Shown here: piece by piece, positions 42,405 to 59,816 of the stretch | Layout: each line of letters starts with the position of its first letter | Numbering within the stretch: the stretch's first letter is position 1 | IMG/VR virus record: IMGVR_UViG_3300020152_000024 | Span: 1 to 64,000 of that record | Length of the DNA: 64,000 nucleotides | DNA from: a virus | Reading direction: 5' to 3' (one strand) | Notes under the pieces: generated by a model | Databases searched by the model: none | What the model was told of the DNA's origin: nothing | The model's input: the letters and a program-made list of their open reading frames with translations, nothing else | Made by a program: the position numbers and the translations under genes

Positions 42405-42433
42405 TTGACACTGCGTCTAGGGGCCCCTATACA
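42405..42433 (+). promoter_or_regulatory. sigma70-like promoter with TAGGGGCCCCTA operator
   Basis: TTGACA (42405-42410), 17-bp spacer, TATACA (42428-42433). The perfect 12-bp palindrome TAGGGGCCCCTA (42418-42429) fills the spacer and overlaps the -10. The start of transcription would be about 42440, 18 bp before the ATG of the DUF6573 gene. A bound protein would block the promoter. Confidence 0.85.
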
Positions 42434-42457
42434 GGATGCATCGAAACGGAGATCGCA

Positions 42458-42880
42458 ATGACCATGACCGACGAACCCCTCTTCACCGCCGATGATATCG
42501 TCAGCGTCTACACCCGCGCCCAAGCGATCGAGGACGGCGTGCTGGTCGATGTCTCGGCGAAAGCCAATGGCATCTGGAAGTTTCCAGTCGCGCTCACCAG
42601 CGCCGCCTGGGAAGATTTCGTGGCCTGGTCGGATGCAGACACGCTCCGCAAGACATGGCCCCAAGACGAAGACGGCCGGCTCTGGGACGTTCTCTACATG
42701 GGCGCTATGGCGGCCCGGAAGCCCACGAACAATCAAGCCGACCGCCGCAGCTTCACCTTCACACGCGTACCCCGTGAAGGCGCTAGCCGCCGCCCCGTCG
42801 AAGTCGAGGCGCTGATCCATTGCGGCCCCGGCGACAATGGCGAGCCGGTCATCACCATCATGCTGCCGCACGAGGACTGA
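42458..42880 (+). CDS. DUF6573 protein
   Basis: 140 residues. SVYTRAQAIEDGVLVDVS, GIWKFPVALTSAAWEDFVAW and DEDGRLWDVLYMG are the signature of DUF6573, found on plasmids and phages of alphaproteobacteria. Function unknown. It is the first gene behind the operator-promoter at 42405 and is followed after 4 bp by the RHH gene. Confidence 0.85.
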   Translation: MTMTDEPLFTADDIVSVYTRAQAIEDGVLVDVSAKANGIWKFPVALTSAAWEDFVAWSDADTLRKTWPQDEDGRLWDVLYMGAMAARKPTNNQADRRSFTFTRVPREGASRRPVEVEALIHCGPGDNGEPVITIMLPHED

Positions 42881-42884
42881 GCCT

Positions 42885-43199
42885 ATGGCCGACGAAGCAG
42901 CGCCCCCGGCTCCGGCTGGGGGCAACGCCGTTCCGGGCGGACAACATCAGTTGACGGAAGCTAGGGGCCCCACTAGTCCCGACTCCATGGCGAGGAGTGA
43001 AGACGCGATCAAGCGGGCCTGGCAAAAGCAGGAGCAGACCGACCCTGCGCGCGCCAACAACAAGGTGCGCCTGAGGCCGGAAGCGATCGATGATATCGAC
43101 GCCCTGATGGCGCCAATGGGCGCAGAGACCCGCGCCGGCGTGATCTACCAGCTGATCGAAGACGGCAAGCTGAAGTACGGCAAGAAGCGCAAGCGCTGA
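42885..43199 (+). CDS. ribbon-helix-helix protein, candidate regulator of the GGGGCCCC promoters
   Basis: 104 residues. The C-terminal half reads NNKVRLRPEAIDDIDALMAP then ETRAGVIYQLIEDGKLKYGK: a short strand, a helix, a turn and a second helix, as in RHH dimers, ending in a basic tail. RHH dimers bind short palindromes. The gene is in the operon driven by one such palindrome, and its own coding region contains the half-site TAGGGGCCCC at 42962-42971, with an in-frame ATG at 42987 that could start a shorter form. That it is the regulator is inference. Confidence 0.7.
   Translation: MADEAAPPAPAGGNAVPGGQHQLTEARGPTSPDSMARSEDAIKRAWQKQEQTDPARANNKVRLRPEAIDDIDALMAPMGAETRAGVIYQLIEDGKLKYGKKRKR
42951..42977 (+). 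promoter_or_regulatory. internal degenerate copy of the GGGGCCCC promoter/operator
   Basis: TTGACG (42951-42956) is followed by TAGGGGCCCC (42962-42971) and ACTAGT (42972-42977); the spacer is 15 bp instead of 17 and the right end of the palindrome is changed. It lies inside the RHH gene just before an in-frame ATG. Confidence 0.4.
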
Positions 43200-43218
43200 T
43201 CGTCTCGCGCGCGCGACA

Positions 43219-43246
43219 TTCACACTAATTTAGGGGCCCCTATCTT
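43219..43246 (+). promoter_or_regulatory. second TAGGGGCCCCTA operator with weak promoter
   Basis: A perfect palindrome at 43231-43242, between TTCACA (43219-43224) and TATCTT (43241-43246), 16-bp spacer. Its centre is 35 bp from that of the next copy, so the two may act together in front of the 43306 gene. Confidence 0.6.
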
Positions 43247-43252
43247 TTCCGT

Positions 43253-43281
43253 TTGACACGTCGTCTAGGGGCCCCTATACC
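43253..43281 (+). promoter_or_regulatory. sigma70-like promoter with TAGGGGCCCCTA operator
   Basis: TTGACA (43253-43258), 17-bp spacer, TATACC (43276-43281), palindrome at 43266-43277. The geometry is identical to the copy at 42405, and the downstream GATGCATCGAA leader is also shared. It drives the LPD29 gene. Confidence 0.85.
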
Positions 43282-49484: not shown

Positions 49485-49711
49485 GCAGCCTCCCACAAAA
49501 ACCGCGGCGTCTTAGCCTGAACGGCGCGCGCTCTGTTCGGCACCCGCCGCGCCTTTCCATCGATCGCAAGCTCCGTCAGCACGACGCGAAGCGTGGTGTG
49601 ATCCAGCCCAGTGGCGCGGCCGAGCGCGCCATAGCCAAGCGGCTCCTTGCCGGCGCGGAGCGCAGTCAGGACGGCGCGGCCATAGCGGGCGACAAGAGAA
49701 GGCGCCGTCAT
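49481..49711 (-). CDS. small winged-helix DNA-binding protein
   Basis: 76 residues. RYGRAVLTALRAGKEPLGYG, GRATGLDHTTLRVVLTELAI and a short wing (KARRVPNRARA) make a compact winged helix. It follows directly after the helicase-methyltransferase gene (4-bp overlap) and may regulate it or bind DNA with it. Confidence 0.65.
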   Translation of the reverse strand: MTAPSLVARYGRAVLTALRAGKEPLGYGALGRATGLDHTTLRVVLTELAIDGKARRVPNRARAVQAKTPRFLWEAA

Positions 49712-52700
49712 GCCGCCTCGCCCTCGCTGGAGCTTTCAGCGTCCGCTTCACTTTCGGCGCCCAGCAAGCCGAACAAGGTCGGCGTCATCGCCTCACGCTC
49801 GGCAGAGCCAAGATAATAGCAAGCGTCGCGGAAGCTTTGCGGGTTAAGCTCAGACCCCGCGCCGCGCCTGCCTTTCTTCACTGCGACATAGGGCACGGTG
49901 CCGAGACCGGCGAACGGATCGAACACTAGCTCACCGGCTTGCGAATACATCGTGATCAGCCGCTCGACGATATCGAGCTGGAGCGGGCAGACGTGCATCT
50001 CGACACGCCGCCGGCTCTGCTCGCTATTGAGCGTCAGCATCCGGTTGATGTCGTGCCACACTTCCGGATGGTGCGAGCCGGGCGCGATCGACATGAAGGT
50101 GGCCGGCAACGCGCCGCGCTTTTCCAGCTCTTCGCCGATGTGCACGTGCGCGTCGTAATCATAGACCTCGGTGAGGCTCCACGACGTGAAGGCCTTGGCC
50201 AACTTGTCGGGCCCGAGGCGCGCCAACTCTTCGACACTGATCAGGCGGTTGCCGCTGGAGCGCCAAAAGGCGTGCGCGTCGATCTGCCAGCGCGCGCGCG
50301 AATAGCCGTCGGGGTTGATCCACGCGCCGTCGGCCGACTCCTTCTTCGGCTTCGCCACCGGGTCATCGGCGTAGCCCTTCGAGCGGTCGCTCTGGGGCTT
50401 CCTGAAATGCAGGATGTATTCGGGCATGCCCGAGCCCATCTTGGTGGCGTCCTTGGCGTTCTCCGTCCAGCCGAGGCGATAGGTCTGGTTGTTCTCGCGC
50501 ACGACGTCGGTCACAACCGTGACCATGCCCATGTAATCGAAGCCCGCCGCCTGGAAGTGGCGGATCGTGTCGGCATGGAAGGGATAGACCGTCGGCGCGC
50601 CCGTGCCGGCGACAGCGCCGAACACGATGCGGTCCTTGACGTGGATTTCGCAGCGCCGGCCGGGCTTCAACACGCGCAACAGCTCGCGTGTCAGAAAGCT
50701 CATTTGGCCGAAGAATTCTTCGTTGGTGTCAACGTGGCCGAAATCTTCGTAAGCCTCGCAATACTCATACTGCGAGCTGAACGGGATCGAGGAGACGATG
50801 AGATCGACGCTGTTGTCGTCCATCGCGCGCGCCTCGGCGACGCAATCGTTGTTAGCGATCCAGTAGCGCTCACCCCTCGCCTCGCGGCGCTCGACGCCCA
50901 TGGTGCGGGTGAGCTGGCCCACCATCACCTCATGATCCAAACCAAAGCGGCGGATCAGTTCGGCCATGCGGGTCTGCATCTCGTCATGCAGTTGCCACTT
51001 GCGCTTTAAGTCGGCGACGATGAGGCGTTCGGCCTCCGAGTAGATGATGTCGATTCTGCAGGGCCGCTTCTGGCCGAACCGCTGCACCCGGTGGATGGCC
51101 TGGATGAAGTCGTGAAACTTGAAGCCGACGCCGACGAAGATTTCCCAGGCGCAGTGGCGCTGGAAGTTGCAGCCCGCGCCAGAAAGAATTGGCTTGGTCG
51201 CGAAGGTGGCGATCTCGCCTTTCGCGAACGCGATCACGCGCCGCTCGCGTTCGTCAAGGTCCATGGATCCGTGGATGGTGACCACGCCATCGCCCAGCGC
51301 CGCTTCAATCGCCTCGCGCTCAGCTTCGAGATCATGCCACAAAACGACATGATCGGCGGCCTGTTCGGCGCGCAGCTCGAGCATCTTCGCCACGCGCGAT
51401 GGCAGTGAGTCCCGCTTCTCTGCGGCCGCGGCTTGGACGCCCAGCGCCGCATCCCGGAACAGCAGCTTCTGCCCGTCCTTTTCTTCGCCGGCTTGCTTGT
51501 GATCGGTCGGCACTTCGTGCCAGCGCACGTCGAGCGGCGGCAGATTGAAGCCTTCATCGGAGAAGCCGAGGTCGGACGGCTTTTGCAGCCACACCGACCA
51601 GGACTGCACCCAAATCCAGAACTCCTCTTCCTTGTGCGGATAGAGCGTGAGGTCGTTGGCCTTCTCGCTGTTGCGCTGGAAGAAGCGCGTCAAGGCATGG
51701 CCGGTGTCCATCACGCCAAGGAAGCCCGCGTAGTGGATCAGTTCTTTCAGGCGGTTCGGCGAGGGCGTCGCGGTGGCGACGAAGCGAAAGCGCACGCCCT
51801 CGAAGAGCGGGAGAAATTCTTGGTAGGTCTTCGAGCCGAAACTGCGCAGCACCGCAGCTTCGTCGAGCGAGGCGGCGATGAACAGGCGCGGATCAAGTTT
51901 GCCTTCACGAACGCTCTCATAGTTCGAGAGGTAAATCGTCGGAACGCCAAGGTCGGCATGCCGCTGGCGCGCCTCGGCGTCGTCATGAAACTCAGCATCC
52001 GTGCGGATGAAGACAAGCCGCACCGCGTAATCGCCGGTGAAGCGCTCGCTCGCTTCGCTCGTGAACTCTTGGCGCACGCCCAGCGGCAAAACGATGAGCG
52101 GCGAGCCCGGCTCATAGTTCGCGATCTGGCGCATGATCTCGATTTGCGTCGCGGTCTTGTGCAAGCCGAATGACGCGAACACTGCGCGCCGCCCACCCTT
52201 CAGCGCCCAACGCACGATCGCACGCGCGTGCGGCGCGAGCGCGGGGTTGATCTCCGCGAGGGGCTCGATGCCTTCAAACGGCGCGAGCTTGATCTTGCTT
52301 TCGAGGAAGCGTCGGTAGTCGCCGCTCATCATCTCGGCAATCGTTGGGATCGGCAGAAACTCAACTACGGCGGTGATGCGCCCGTCCGTCACGTTCTGGC
52401 AGATTGAACAAGCACACTTCGACGGCGGCGGCGCATCGATCGCGCGCCCCGCGTGCGCCACGATCATCTCCATGCCGAGCGTCGCGAGTGTCGTCTCGCC
52501 CTCATCATCGATGAAGAAGCCGCCGCGCTCGGTCAGCGAAGCGAAGGCGTCATCTGTCCAGGCCGGCCACTTGCCCCACGCGCTGCCCACGTCCCACAGA
52601 TGCAGCACCGCCGCATCGATAAGCTCACGCTCCAGCGCGAGCATTCTGCCCGGCCCCGCGAAGGCTTCTTGCGCACGCGCAAGCACCGTCTGGATTTTTG

Positions 52701-52788
52701 CGACGGGCGACGGCGCATCAGCGTGCGCCTCAATGGCGCTCTCCAGCGCCCCGCCCTTCAATCCTTTTTTCGCCCCCCGCTTGGCCAT
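49708..52788 (-). CDS. SNF2-like helicase fused to beta-class DNA methyltransferase
   Basis: 1026 residues. The helicase part (about 190-640) has a motif I-like FASFGLHKTATQIE, a DEAx-like SLDEAAVLRSFGSKT, motif III-like VATATPSPNRLKE, and motif VI QAIHRVQRFGQKRPC. The Gly before the Walker Lys is replaced by His. The methylase part (about 660-1000) has SSIPFSSQYEY in place of DPPY, then the SAM site VFDPFAGLGTVPY near the C-terminus, an order typical of beta-class amino-methylases (N6-A or N4-C). A small Cys cluster (CACSICQNV) lies near residue 125. It starts at ATG overlapping the cro stop and is the largest early-left gene. Confidence 0.85.
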   Translation of the reverse strand: MAKRGAKKGLKGGALESAIEAHADAPSPVAKIQTVLARAQEAFAGPGRMLALERELIDAAVLHLWDVGSAWGKWPAWTDDAFASLTERGGFFIDDEGETTLATLGMEMIVAHAGRAIDAPPPSKCACSICQNVTDGRITAVVEFLPIPTIAEMMSGDYRRFLESKIKLAPFEGIEPLAEINPALAPHARAIVRWALKGGRRAVFASFGLHKTATQIEIMRQIANYEPGSPLIVLPLGVRQEFTSEASERFTGDYAVRLVFIRTDAEFHDDAEARQRHADLGVPTIYLSNYESVREGKLDPRLFIAASLDEAAVLRSFGSKTYQEFLPLFEGVRFRFVATATPSPNRLKELIHYAGFLGVMDTGHALTRFFQRNSEKANDLTLYPHKEEEFWIWVQSWSVWLQKPSDLGFSDEGFNLPPLDVRWHEVPTDHKQAGEEKDGQKLLFRDAALGVQAAAAEKRDSLPSRVAKMLELRAEQAADHVVLWHDLEAEREAIEAALGDGVVTIHGSMDLDERERRVIAFAKGEIATFATKPILSGAGCNFQRHCAWEIFVGVGFKFHDFIQAIHRVQRFGQKRPCRIDIIYSEAERLIVADLKRKWQLHDEMQTRMAELIRRFGLDHEVMVGQLTRTMGVERREARGERYWIANNDCVAEARAMDDNSVDLIVSSIPFSSQYEYCEAYEDFGHVDTNEEFFGQMSFLTRELLRVLKPGRRCEIHVKDRIVFGAVAGTGAPTVYPFHADTIRHFQAAGFDYMGMVTVVTDVVRENNQTYRLGWTENAKDATKMGSGMPEYILHFRKPQSDRSKGYADDPVAKPKKESADGAWINPDGYSRARWQIDAHAFWRSSGNRLISVEELARLGPDKLAKAFTSWSLTEVYDYDAHVHIGEELEKRGALPATFMSIAPGSHHPEVWHDINRMLTLNSEQSRRRVEMHVCPLQLDIVERLITMYSQAGELVFDPFAGLGTVPYVAVKKGRRGAGSELNPQSFRDACYYLGSAEREAMTPTLFGLLGAESEADAESSSEGEAA

Positions 52789-55542: not shown

Positions 55543-55571
55543 TTGCATCGCGGTCTAGGGGCCCCTATACC
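55543..55571 (+). promoter_or_regulatory. sigma70-like promoter with TAGGGGCCCCTA operator
   Basis: TTGCAT (55543-55548), 17-bp spacer, TATACC (55566-55571), palindrome at 55556-55567. The core GTCTAGGGGCCCCTATACC is shared with the copy at 43253, 12 kb away. It drives the recombination genes starting at 55599. Confidence 0.82.
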
Positions 55572-55598
55572 ATCCGCACGAACGATGGAGAGTGCGTG

Positions 55599-56360
55599 AT
55601 GAGTATCCACGAAGGCCACGCCGCAGGCGGCAACAACGACTTCCGCGACGCGGGGCAAATGTTTCGCGATGAACTGAAAAAGTTCGAGGACGACTGCGCT
55701 GCGCTGGCGAAGCTTGCGGTTAAGGCGAATGGCGACTTAGACGAAGAGGCCATCGCCGCCAACCAGAAGCGATTCGCGGACCTGGTCGGACGCGAGTGCG
55801 AGCTTCGCAAAACGGCGATCAGCCGAAAGGACGAAGAGAAGAAGCCATATTGGGATGAGTGCCAGCGCATCGACGCCGCGCACCGCAACGTCATCGCCAA
55901 ACTCGCCGATGCGCTCAAGAGTGCGAAGTCGAAGTTCGATGCGTGGATTCTGGCCGAAGACGCTAAGCGGGAAGTCGCCGAGAAGGAAGCGCGCGCGGCG
56001 GTCGAGCGCGCAGAGCGTGAAGCGGAGGCCGTTGAAGCCAAAGCCGCAGCCGGCCACGACCCATTCGCCGCGTTCGAGGCGCAGGAAGAAGTATTCGCCG
56101 CACGCAACAACGCGCAACAAGCCAGCTTCGCCGCCGCCGCCATCCCTGAGCGCACGAAGATCGCCAGTAACGTGGGCCGCTCGGTCAGCGTGCGCACCTC
56201 GCAAACGGTCGAGGTCATCGATTATGCGGCGGCGTTCGCCACCGTCGCTGAGAACAAGGCGGTCAAGGAAGCTATCGAGAAGGCGGTGAAAGCTGCGCAC
56301 AAGGCGACAGGCGCCGTGCCGGCCGGCTGCAAGCTCGTCGAAGTCAAGGCGGTGCGGTGA
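55599..56360 (+). CDS. coiled-coil protein, partner of the ERF-FEN recombinase
   Basis: 253 residues from ATG 55599 (GGAG 8 bp upstream; a GTG lies 3 bp before). A long charged coiled coil (ELRKTAISRKDEEKKPYWDE; VAEKEARAAVERAEREAEAV) and a C-terminal domain (VRTSQTVEVIDYAAAFATVA; KATGAVPAGCKLVEVKAVR). Genes with this plan often precede ERF/RecT genes in phages (DUF1351-like), probably as recombination partners. It overlaps the fusion gene by one base. Confidence 0.65.
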   Translation: MSIHEGHAAGGNNDFRDAGQMFRDELKKFEDDCAALAKLAVKANGDLDEEAIAANQKRFADLVGRECELRKTAISRKDEEKKPYWDECQRIDAAHRNVIAKLADALKSAKSKFDAWILAEDAKREVAEKEARAAVERAEREAEAVEAKAAAGHDPFAAFEAQEEVFAARNNAQQASFAAAAIPERTKIASNVGRSVSVRTSQTVEVIDYAAAFATVAENKAVKEAIEKAVKAAHKATGAVPAGCKLVEVKAVR

Positions 56361-58060
56361 TGGCGCACGACCTTCAACACACTGCGCCCGCGGCGGACGG
56401 CATCGATCACACGGCCGTCGTGGTTGAGAGCGCGGCGCCGGCTGCGCGTGCAGAACAGTCGGCAACCTCCTCCCCAGCGGAGAAGCCGGCGGCTGGCTTA
56501 GCAGCCCAGCCGCCGGCCGTGGCGCTCGAACACAAGACGCTGGCGCTCGCCCTGCTTGCGGCGCAGCGCGACGCGAAAGAAATCGTCAAGGACGCGCGCA
56601 ACGAAGGCGGGCCAAACCAGCAGGCCTATGATTACGCCACGCTGCCGAACGTCTATGCGCAGGCGCGCTCCGTTATCAACGCGCACGGCCTCATCTTGAG
56701 TCATCACGGGCGCATGCGCGATGTCGCGGGCGCCGGCATGTACGTGATGGAAACGCGCATCACGCACGCCAAGAGCGGCAAGTCCGAGGTGTGCGAGTTT
56801 CCCATCTGCAAAGGCTTTTTGCCGCCTCGCCAGACCGGCGAGCTGATGACCTATGCGCAGCGTTACAACACGCTCGCGATCCTGGCGCTTGCGCCGAAGG
56901 AACGCGACACAGACGGCGACGGCGTGGGTTCGACCGCCAGTCCGAAACGCGATGGCCCCACCGCCGCGTTGCCCGCGCCGTCGTCTGCCGCCCGCGAGCG
57001 CCTGATGCTGATCGACGCGTCGGGCCTCATCTATCGCGCCTATCACGCCTGCCCGGCGCTGGTGCGCGAAAGCGACGGCCAGCCGGTCGGCGCCGTGCTG
57101 GGCTTCGTCGGCATGCTCTCGAAACTCTTGAGCGATGCGCCCGAGCGCGTCGCCGTCGTGTTCGATGCCGGCAAGCGGACGTTCCGGCATGCGCTCTTTG
57201 CCGATTACAAGGCCAACCGTCCGCCGACGCCAGATGATCTTTCGCGCCAGATGCCGCTCTTTCGCGACGCCGCCCGCGCCATGGGCCTTGCTGTGGTGGA
57301 GACGGCAGGCTTCGAGGCTGACGATATCCTCGCCACCTATGCCCGCGCGGCGGCGAGTGACGGCGCTCATGTCACCGTCGTGTCTGCTGATAAAGACTTG
57401 ATGCAGCTCGTCAGCGAGCGCATCGCGCTCTACGATCCCAAGGCCGAGCGCTTCATCGACCGCCAAGCGGTGATCGATAAATTGGGCGTCGGCCCCGAGC
57501 GCGCGATCGATGCGCAAGCGCTGATCGGCGACACCGCCGACAACGTGCCGGGCGCACCCGGCATCGGCGCGGTCTGGGCGAGCGAATTGCTCGGCAAGTT
57601 CGGTACGGTCGAAGCGATGATCGCCCGCGCCGATGAGATCGATGGCTCCAAGCGCGATGTCATCGTCACCCACGCCGCCCAGATCATGCTCTCCAAGCGC
57701 CTTGTGGCGCTCGCCACCGACGTTCCGATGGCGACGCCATGGCAGAGCCTCACCCGCGCCGACGCCGACGTGAGCGCGTTTATCGAGGGCCTGGGGCCGC
57801 ACGCTGAAGCCAGCGCCGCTCCCTCCCCACCTCCCCCCTCTGAGGGGGAGGCGCGCGAAGAAGGCGACGCCAAGTTCTACACTTCGATGCTGCAGCATCT
57901 GTCGCGCTGTCACACCGCGCCTGAGTTCGATGCGTGGCTCGCCATGTGCACGATGGATGCGCTGAAGAAGTGCACCAAGGCGCAGCGCGACAGCTTGCGC
58001 TCCGAGCATGAGCGCCAGCGCGCGCAAAAGCTTGGCGCCGCCATGGCGGGAGGCGTGTGA
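56360..58060 (+). CDS. ERF single-strand annealing protein fused to PolA-type 5'-3' exonuclease
   Basis: 566 residues from the ATG overlapping the upstream stop. After a Pro/Ala-rich start, residues about 55-190 are an ERF domain (YDYATLPNVYAQARSVINAH; GELMTYAQRYNTLAILALAP; ERDTDGDG). Residues about 212-450 are a complete FEN/PolA exonuclease domain with all acidic motifs: LMLIDASGLIYRAYH, VVFDAGKRTF, FEADDILATYAR, VVSADKDLMQLVS, and GDTADNVPGAPGIG. The last 60 residues are a further helical part (EFDAWLAMCTMDALKKC). Annealing protein and exonuclease, normally two proteins as in lambda Red, appear as one chain. Confidence 0.88.
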   Translation: MAHDLQHTAPAADGIDHTAVVVESAAPAARAEQSATSSPAEKPAAGLAAQPPAVALEHKTLALALLAAQRDAKEIVKDARNEGGPNQQAYDYATLPNVYAQARSVINAHGLILSHHGRMRDVAGAGMYVMETRITHAKSGKSEVCEFPICKGFLPPRQTGELMTYAQRYNTLAILALAPKERDTDGDGVGSTASPKRDGPTAALPAPSSAARERLMLIDASGLIYRAYHACPALVRESDGQPVGAVLGFVGMLSKLLSDAPERVAVVFDAGKRTFRHALFADYKANRPPTPDDLSRQMPLFRDAARAMGLAVVETAGFEADDILATYARAAASDGAHVTVVSADKDLMQLVSERIALYDPKAERFIDRQAVIDKLGVGPERAIDAQALIGDTADNVPGAPGIGAVWASELLGKFGTVEAMIARADEIDGSKRDVIVTHAAQIMLSKRLVALATDVPMATPWQSLTRADADVSAFIEGLGPHAEASAAPSPPPPSEGEAREEGDAKFYTSMLQHLSRCHTAPEFDAWLAMCTMDALKKCTKAQRDSLRSEHERQRAQKLGAAMAGGV

Positions 58061-58302
58061 TGGCGCGCCGCTCCACCACCAAGCCCGAAGTCAATTACCT
58101 CGGCAACAAGGCCCTCGCTGAGCGCCAAGCCGAGCGCATCCGCACCAAGTGGCGCGCGCTGGGCTACGAGGTGAAGGTCGAGGTCATTCCGGGCGAGTTC
58201 ACGCCCGCTTGGCGCTGCACCCCCTACTTCATCCGCTCCGATCTCACGCTCAGCGGACGCCCGCCGGAATCGGCGCGCATCAGCGAAGGAAAAACGCAAT
58301 GA
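58060..58302 (+). CDS. small basic hypothetical protein
   Basis: 80 residues from the ATG overlapping the fusion gene stop. LAERQAERIRTKWRALGYEV then KVEVIPGEFTPAWRCTPYFI: a helix followed by a beta part. It could be a small DNA-binding or helper protein of the recombination/clamp module. Not recognised. Confidence 0.6.
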   Translation: MARRSTTKPEVNYLGNKALAERQAERIRTKWRALGYEVKVEVIPGEFTPAWRCTPYFIRSDLTLSGRPPESARISEGKTQ

Positions 58303-59816
58303 GCAACGCCGCACAGACGAAGTCGCAATTCGACGGCGTCGATAGCTACGATCTTGTCAGAGAGCTGGTTGACCGCGGCCATGCGCCCAAGGTGCTGGCC
58401 GATATCAAGACGACGACCTTAGTGGATGAGATGGGCGACCGCATTGGCGACGGCGCGGTCTTACAATTCATCGATCGCCACGCCGATCACAGCGGGTGCT
58501 TGGACGAAGACGACATTATCCCGCTCGCATCGGCCAGCGCTGACGAGCTGCTTGAAGCGCTCGCCGAACACGCCTGGGGGGGGGGGGATATGCGGTCCGC
58601 TGATGTCGTCGCCGCCTATGGGCGAATGGTTTTCGACGCGCCGATCGTGCGTGTCGGCGGGCTGCCGGATGCGTCCCTCGAAGACGGCGCGCTCGTAATC
58701 GCCGCCGGCGACCTCGCTCATGCGTTGACGCAGGTCGCATCGGTTATCGAGCGGCGAAACACCATCCCGATCCTGGGCGATGTGCGCGTCGAAGCGGGCG
58801 CTGGCTATGTCACCTTCATCGGCACCGATCTCGATATCGAAATCCGCACGCGCTTCGATCTCCACCGGTGCGTTGGCAAATCCTTCAAGGCGTGCTTCCA
58901 GCCGCACGCCCTGCTCGCCTTGGCGCGCCGGCTGCATGTCGAGGCCCTCATCACCTTGCGCGTCGTCGCCGACGAAGGCCGCGTCCTGGTCGAGTGGATG
59001 GGCGGGACGCTCACCCTTGCTTATCGCGATGTCGCCGACTTCCCGGAGTTTCACGTCGAGGGCGCGCACTTCCTCAAGGGCGAATCCAATGGCGAACTGA
59101 TCGAGGCCTTCGACCGGCTGAGCCATTACATCTCCACCGAAGAGACGCGCTATTACCTGAACGGCATCGCCATCAGCGGCGACATGGGCGCGCCGGCCGC
59201 GGTGGCGACGGACGGTCATCGGCTCTATGCCCTGCCCGCCGCGCTGCCCGAAGAAATCGCAGCGCATCGCATCATCATTCCTCGCAAGACGATTGAAACC
59301 GTTCGCCGGCTGCTGCGCGGGCTCGGCGCCTTTGATGTTTCGGTTCACGGCGCCGAGCCCGACCGCATCTGCTTCACAGGTCCTGGAATTGCCGTGCGCT
59401 CCAAACTGATCGACGGCAAGTTTCCCGAATGGGACAAAGTGGTGCGCCCGACGCTCACGCAGCCGCGCACCACCAGCATCGATCGGATGGCCCTGCTCAG
59501 CGCAGTCGAGCAGGCGATCCCGTTCGGACCTGAGCGCAGCGCTTCTGTTCGCCTGCAGGCCGTCGGCGGGCGCTTGCTGATCTCAGCCAGCAATCCCGAT
59601 GTCGGCGCCGCGAAGGTCGATGTGGGACCGGTTGAAGGCGATCTCCTGGACGGCGATCCGGTGGGCTTCAATGGCGGCTATCTCCGCACCGCGCTGCAGC
59701 AGCTGCGCGGCGAGCGCCTCACGCTTCGCGCTGGCGATGTGTCCAGCCCCTGCCTCTTCACCACGGAAGCGACCGCCGACGGCGAGTTCTGCATCCTCAT
59801 GCCACTGCGGGTGTGA
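58299..59816 (+). CDS. DNA polymerase III beta sliding clamp with N-terminal extension
   Basis: 505 residues from ATG 58299 (GAAGGA upstream, ATGA overlap). Residues about 115-505 are a beta clamp: AHALTQVASVIERRNTIPIL, TFIGTDLDIEIRTRF, TRYYLNGIAIS, AVATDGHRLYALP, PRKTIETVRRLLRG and the terminal FCILMPLRV. It would ring DNA and hold the polymerase or other partners. The first 92 residues (DSYDLVRELVDRGHAPKVLA; LVDEMGDRIGDGAVLQFIDR) are a separate small domain not found in bacterial clamps. The junction is a run of 12 G's (58576-58587) coding for three Gly, where slippage could split or join the two parts. Confidence 0.9.
   Translation: MSNAAQTKSQFDGVDSYDLVRELVDRGHAPKVLADIKTTTLVDEMGDRIGDGAVLQFIDRHADHSGCLDEDDIIPLASASADELLEALAEHAWGGGDMRSADVVAAYGRMVFDAPIVRVGGLPDASLEDGALVIAAGDLAHALTQVASVIERRNTIPILGDVRVEAGAGYVTFIGTDLDIEIRTRFDLHRCVGKSFKACFQPHALLALARRLHVEALITLRVVADEGRVLVEWMGGTLTLAYRDVADFPEFHVEGAHFLKGESNGELIEAFDRLSHYISTEETRYYLNGIAISGDMGAPAAVATDGHRLYALPAALPEEIAAHRIIIPRKTIETVRRLLRGLGAFDVSVHGAEPDRICFTGPGIAVRSKLIDGKFPEWDKVVRPTLTQPRTTSIDRMALLSAVEQAIPFGPERSASVRLQAVGGRLLISASNPDVGAAKVDVGPVEGDLLDGDPVGFNGGYLRTALQQLRGERLTLRAGDVSSPCLFTTEATADGEFCILMPLRV
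58576..58587 (+). repeat. G12 homopolymer in the clamp gene
   Basis: Twelve consecutive G's in frame TGG GGG GGG GGG GAT at the border between N-terminal extension and clamp domain. It is slippage-prone in replication, transcription and sequencing; one base more or less would stop the clamp frame. Confidence 0.8.

Follow-up and report, generated by a model that had tools for sequence, protein, structure and literature searches.

A single-chain candidate recombinase joining an ERF annealase to a PolA-type 5'-3' exonuclease in a temperate phage contig

One uninterrupted reading frame in a metagenomic virus record of 65,381 bases, of which we analysed a window of 64,000 bases (all positions refer to this window unless stated otherwise), encodes an ERF single-strand annealing core, a complete PolA-type 5'-3' exonuclease and an ERF-type tail (56360 to 58060, + strand; 566 aa, 60 kDa). 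We regard this protein as probably a single-chain version of the two-component recombinases of the Red/RecET type, but with a nuclease from a different family. The original prediction, made from the DNA letters alone, had described the frame as an ERF domain joined to a PolA-type exonuclease with its acidic residues intact and had contrasted it with the two-protein Red/RecET systems. Pfam, PHROGs and an alignment with Taq polymerase agree on both domains, and annealase and exonuclease, which are separate proteins in Red/RecET, are indeed encoded by one frame here. What would be new is thus a two-component phage recombination system contained in one chain and relying on another family of nucleases.

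The frame starts at GTG 56357 or ATG 56360, ends with the stop codon at 58060 and has no internal stop. It lies in a rightward operon consisting of a gene for a 254-aa coiled-coil protein, the fusion gene, a small gene and the gene for a DNA polymerase III beta clamp. The encoded protein begins with an Ala/Pro-rich extension (56360 to 56518), followed by the ERF core (residues 65-198, 56549 to 56950) and, after a short Ala/Pro-rich linker (residues 199-214, 56951 to 56998), by the N-terminal catalytic domain (residues 215-377, 56999 to 57487) and the C-terminal helix-hairpin-helix (SAM-fold) domain (residues 378-471, 57488 to 57769) of the exonuclease. A second low-complexity linker (SPPPPSEGEAREEGD, 57785 to 57871), which holds an imperfect palindrome of a C-run and a G-run (57819-57851), leads to an annealase-type C-terminal helical tail (residues 506-567, 57872 to 58057), all on the + strand. 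The N-terminal extension and both linkers, the latter recognised from their sequence, are predicted to be disordered (AlphaFold2 pLDDT <50). All three Pfam families proposed for a check in the original prediction were matched (PF04404, E 8.4e-14; PF02739, E 1.1e-53; PF01367, E 1.7e-22), and PHROGs concur with an Erf-like annealing protein (E 7e-17) and an exonuclease (E 4e-35). Of the two observations named in advance as speaking against the fusion, a missing ERF domain and a frameshift between the domains, neither was made: ERF was found at residues 65-198, and no frameshift is visible in the open frame with its uniform codon usage. Along the chain, codon usage and GC content by codon position are similar in all three parts (ERF, exonuclease and tail) and resemble those of the neighbouring genes; both a frameshift and the insertion of foreign DNA by misassembly are thereby made less likely.

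With 52 bits compared to a cut-off of 25, the PF04404 match spans profile positions 4-137 of 153, and every residue that is invariant across 30 aligned viral ERF cores is kept in the fusion, including the TYAxRY motif. This significant profile match and the conserved core residues place the annealing part, as judged by sequence, in the ERF family. For structure prediction, the ERF core was folded without the mixed ERF and exonuclease alignment, in which the domains were misaligned. The resulting AlphaFold2 model (mean pLDDT 86) consists of a three-stranded sheet and a traversing helix, and its top fold match in the PDB was human RAD52 (E 4.8e-3, probability 1.00), with a TM score of only 0.41. 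The core is therefore predicted to adopt a Rad52-like fold, RAD52 being the best match of a confident model in spite of the low TM score.

Pfam coverage of the exonuclease is complete and in order (PF02739 positions 1-164 of 164, PF01367 positions 1-95 of 97), and the domain was modelled at a pLDDT of about 95. The alignment with Taq polymerase (E 5e-52) showed all nine metal-binding acids to be intact (D220, D270, E320, D322, D323, D345, D347, D392 and D395), and these carboxylates are near-invariant across 122 relatives. The domain is 49-55% identical to alphaproteobacterial PolA, and PolA models are matched by the exonuclease part only (positions 1-266 of about 890). Sequence, fold and catalytic residues are thus like those of the 5'-3' exonuclease domain of DNA polymerase I, but the fusion has neither a polymerase nor a 3'-5' exonuclease domain: the exonuclease is embedded in an ERF protein, and a tail of other origin stands where the polymerase domain would follow.

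This tail was described in the original prediction as a third, helical part of the protein. A distinct C-terminal part is present, but phmmer searches and alignment identify it as an ERF-type annealase tail rather than a separate third component. The last approximately 55 residues have no Pfam or PHROG match. In a search set in which the tails of viral ERF proteins were mixed with approximately 3000 unrelated control tails, the ERF tails of the contigs L237 (E 1.6e-4) and L243 (E 3.5e-4) ranked first, compared to an E value of 0.34 for the best control. The aligned tails follow the pattern L..C.t..El.aW......R..L....r...L, which is also found in the RecT protein of L111 and in a PHROG 3657 protein of L112, and among PDB entries the tail profile matched best the corresponding tail of Gp77, an Erf protein of known structure (E 0.036). 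A profile built by eye was weak (fusion tail E 1.1, second among approximately 5000 controls); the assignment is based on the pairwise phmmer matches and not on this profile. The fusion tail alone had no match in the phage records. According to a survey (PMC8093625), several annealase families have an extra C-terminal domain that remotely resembles that of Red-beta; the latter domain has been determined structurally in complex with lambda exonuclease (Caldwell 2019, as cited in PMC7496540). With an ERF-type tail at its C-terminus, the protein runs from ERF core through exonuclease to ERF tail, the nuclease lying inside the annealase; a simple end-to-end joining of ERF and exonuclease is ruled out on these grounds. 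The conserved TYAxRY core and C-terminal helical tail are features shared with P22 Erf and other ERF proteins, but core and tail are contiguous in the sampled viral ERFs, whereas the nuclease intervenes in the fusion.

The gene directly upstream (55596 to 56360, + strand), whose stop codon overlaps the start of the fusion gene (GTGATG), encodes the coiled-coil protein that the original prediction had proposed as a partner. It matches PHROG 10477 (E 8e-8) and a local profile of this family (E 1.2e-12), so that the protein would be a member of PHROG 10477, its coiled-coil composition (bias 25) making the score less secure. Counterparts in L105, L108, L111, L303 and L305 match the same family (E 2e-8 to 1e-48). 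Members directly adjoin ERF genes in at least 10 viral contigs (second and third scans combined); of 28 loci from alphaproteobacterial genomes, 10 have a member in the vicinity of ERF. This recurrent neighbourhood with annealase genes bears out the proposed partnership, and upstream accessory genes are described as typical of erf modules in the same survey (PMC8093625). The PHROGs label of the family is 'exonuclease'; Pfam detected no nuclease domain in the members scanned, which included that of the window as well as L303:6352-7068 and L305:10183-10884, and the label may have been inherited from neighbouring genes.

In a survey of viral contigs that were scanned with the exonuclease alignment (a sample) and with local profiles, the same components were found as separate genes. 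L108 and L111 carry a PHROG 10477 gene, RecT and the exonuclease in this order, L105 the exonuclease, a PHROG 10477 gene and ERF, and L112 a split PHROG 10477 gene, a PHROG 3657 gene and the exonuclease; in L193, an ERF gene overlaps the exonuclease gene downstream of it. The cases are few, and the layout in the window appears to be that of this three-part cassette with the annealase and exonuclease genes merged. In cultured phages, an exonuclease VIII gene is followed immediately by a separate gene for the RecT relative, and ERF genes adjoin separate exonuclease genes, so that the PolA-type domain occupies the place of the recombination exonuclease. The nuclease seems to be optional in the cassette, since 8 loci in alphaproteobacteria that combine ERF with a PHROG 10477 gene had no PolA-type exonuclease within approximately 8 kb. 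Queries with the coiled-coil gene, with the gene of the beta clamp or with the ERF domain on its own retrieved no viral relatives; these single-sequence patterns were probably too specific. Two further observations were made in these contigs. First, the PHROG 3657 protein of L112 (L112:4366-5598), with its annealase-like tail, occupies the annealase position in the cassette and is a candidate for a new annealase family. Second, the exonucleases L110:5896-7275, L116:1887-3293, L122:6001-7284, L123:6007-7389 and L130:5788-7335 have a C-terminal extension of approximately 170 aa in common, which in L122, L123 and L130 (and weakly in L110) matches the N-terminal domain of PHROG 10477; these five group weakly with the exonuclease of the window (91/86), and L122 also has RecT nearby.

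In the sampled viral contigs, a RecT domain follows the exonuclease in the same chain in at least 34 of 98 exonuclease ORFs, corresponding to at least 13 clusters at 50% identity. Pfam or PHROG confirmed RecT in L003, L004, L161 and others, and some were recognised by the local profile only; the metal ligands of the exonuclease are kept. The contigs listed with such proteins are L003, L004, L005, L010, L012, L135, L139, L141, L143, L145, L147, L148, L150, L151, L154, L156-L161, L163, L166-L171, L173-L176, L178 and L179. Two examples searched against 50,697 phage records gave no match covering 80% of the sequence. In the exonuclease tree, these proteins form one clade of 35 rows (support 100/95), two members of which lack RecT and run into contig ends. 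The exonuclease of the window lies outside this clade, in one of 56 rows together with alphaproteobacterial PolA-like exonucleases (99/98), and its annealase is an N-terminal ERF. Like the ERF fusion, the proteins of these uncultured viruses covalently join a PolA-type exonuclease to an annealase, but they differ in the opposite domain order, in having RecT instead of ERF and in their separate exonuclease clade. A shared origin of the two kinds of fusion is ruled out by the tree, and the position of the window's exonuclease outside the clade implies that the two functions were joined at least twice independently. Judging from these sequences, exonuclease-annealase fusions of independent origin appear to be common in uncultured viruses. 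The ERF fusion is therefore part of a wider pattern of cassettes and RecT fusions which could not be seen from the window alone. As to whether PolA/FEN-type exonucleases are general, overlooked partners of annealases in a three-part cassette, fused at least twice, in opposite orders and to different annealases, we see an even chance. In the passages of annealase reviews that were read, this nuclease family is not named as an annealase partner, and a literature search, mostly of non-subscription papers, yielded no publication on a fusion of ERF or RecT to a PolA-type exonuclease.

The ERF version is carried by one contig only among the collections searched. A search for other proteins with both domains, as suggested in the original prediction, gave no second ERF-exonuclease chain among the matches listed: none was present among 158 listed viral ERF loci (some contigs being fetched twice), whose ERF ORFs measure 144-435 aa, among the 31 ERFs of 1,078 alphaproteobacterial genomes, or among the listed matches from 50,697 phage and 72,556 plasmid records. 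No prophage copy was detected in host genomes, the best 80 loci having the exonuclease inside PolA-like frames. Two candidates were dismissed: a Shinella plasmid match to residues 128-465 is PolA, and L139, matching from residue 115, is one of the exonuclease-RecT proteins.

Based on the domain content, we infer exonuclease and annealing activities, a hand-over of the strand between them and roles for the tail and the coiled-coil protein as follows. Starting from DNA ends, nicks or flaps, the PolA-type exonuclease would degrade the strand with the 5' end, and the tethered ERF part would bind the emerging 3'-ended single strand, ERF parts assembling on it as it is exposed, and anneal it to a complementary strand. 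By annealing, the phage could repair its genome, circularise it or form concatemers. For the annealase tail, binding to a partner protein is probable; the PHROG 10477 protein, translated just before the fusion, may act as a conserved accessory that also contacts partners. The gene probably originated by fusion of the annealase and exonuclease genes of the recurrent three-gene cassette, in which the exonuclease became inserted between the core and the tail of ERF.

To our knowledge, the known phage recombination systems split the nuclease and annealing jobs between separate proteins. Lambda Red (lambda exonuclease and Red-beta) and RecET likewise pair a 5'-3' exonuclease with an annealase of the Rad52 superfamily, but they consist of two proteins, whereas the fusion is one chain with a PolA/FEN-type nuclease and a 1:1 ratio by construction. 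Nucleases of the lambda Exo/RecE type are PD-(D/E)XK enzymes. That of the fusion is PolA-type and not of the lambda Exo/RecE/YqaJ type, and no PD-(D/E)XK exonuclease was recognised among the other phage genes scanned. In T7, the FEN-type 5' exonuclease gp6 acts in recombination together with the annealing protein gp2.5, as separate proteins, and gp2.5 is an OB-fold and not a Rad52-like protein.

The main rival explanation, which we consider unlikely and which is compatible with a role in recombination, is that the nuclease works with the beta clamp at phage replication forks to remove RNA primers or flaps, ERF only bringing the nuclease to single-stranded DNA or annealed junctions. PolA-type exonucleases are usually regarded as removers of primers and flaps and not as strong end-resecting enzymes, which counts against resection; the part of alphaproteobacterial PolA that processes Okazaki fragments is the nearest relative of the domain, and the beta clamp gene follows almost directly downstream. 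On the other hand, PolA-type exonucleases adjoin, or are fused to, ERF and RecT annealases in the place of the recombination exonuclease, and a role at forks only would leave the fusion to an annealase unexplained. It is improbable, in our estimate, that ERF anneals and the tethered exonuclease merely trims 5' flaps at the joint with no prior resection of ends: PolA/FEN-type nucleases are best known for cutting flaps, and the tether would hold the exonuclease at annealed junctions, but the phage would then have no recognised end-resecting nuclease and depend on one of the host. Among the phage genes scanned, no recombination exonuclease other than the fusion, no SSB and no DNA polymerase were recognised. 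That two genes were joined by misassembly or a base error, as the single metagenomic contig and the C-run/G-run palindrome in the second linker might suggest, is very improbable given the open frame with phage-like codon usage throughout, the tightly packed flanking operon genes and the ERF-type tail behind the exonuclease, which would require two such joins.

If PolA/FEN-type exonucleases are indeed such general partners and were fused to annealases at least twice, the physical coupling of resection and annealing would be under selection, with the 1:1 stoichiometry that has been observed and is structurally unexplained in lambda Red. There, a trimeric exonuclease and a large-ring annealase are reported to bind 1:1, and how this is possible is called an open question (PMC7496540). 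In a natural single chain, 1:1 coupling is given and can be tested directly, and the exonuclease-RecT clade offers dozens more natural examples for such tests. Recombineering with double-stranded DNA, particularly in alphaproteobacteria, would likewise gain a convenient tool in an exonuclease-annealase encoded by a single gene.

Just 5' of the coiled-coil gene, the palindrome TAGGGGCCCCTATACC followed by a -10-like TATACC (55556 to 55571, + strand) forms a putative operator/promoter, which the original prediction had taken as the operon's own. The motif GGGGCCCC is over-represented in the window, with 5 exact copies compared to 1.19 expected and none of 100 shuffles reaching 5, and it lies in promoter-like sites: the copies at 42420 and 43268 form the end of the spacer (17 bases) in a promoter that matches TTGACA-N17-TATACA/C perfectly. 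It is not exclusive to the operon, however. Four of the five copies are at 42.4-43.3 kb, and at 55558 the -10 box is kept and the -35 box is weak (3 of 6 positions matching), so that the motif marks shared phage promoters. The palindrome TAGGGGCCCCTA abuts the -10 box of several promoter-like sites (42418-43275 and 55556) and is likely to be the operator of a phage regulon. At the other end of the operon, the beta clamp (58296 to 59816, + strand; TIGR00663, E 2e-42; Pfam DNA_pol3_beta) is not part of the fusion and has an N-terminal extension of approximately 130 aa. A run of approximately 11 G between this extension and the clamp domains (58577-58588), inside the frame, is possibly a sequencing error or a slippage site.

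The source of the record is a temperate phage with a contractile tail, since terminase, portal, tail sheath, tape measure, integrase and CI-like repressor genes are present. Several phages of marine alphaproteobacteria were among the best terminase matches; together with alphaproteobacterial PolA as the nearest relative of the exonuclease domain, this makes an alphaproteobacterial host likely. Methyltransferase frames seem to occupy both ends of the record (11-925 of the window and record bases 64260-65381, equal to L103:2260-3382), and the genome may therefore be circular or circularly permuted. On the - strand, the window also encodes a 1026-aa protein (49708-52788) in which an SNF2-like helicase is joined to an N6/N4 DNA methyltransferase domain.
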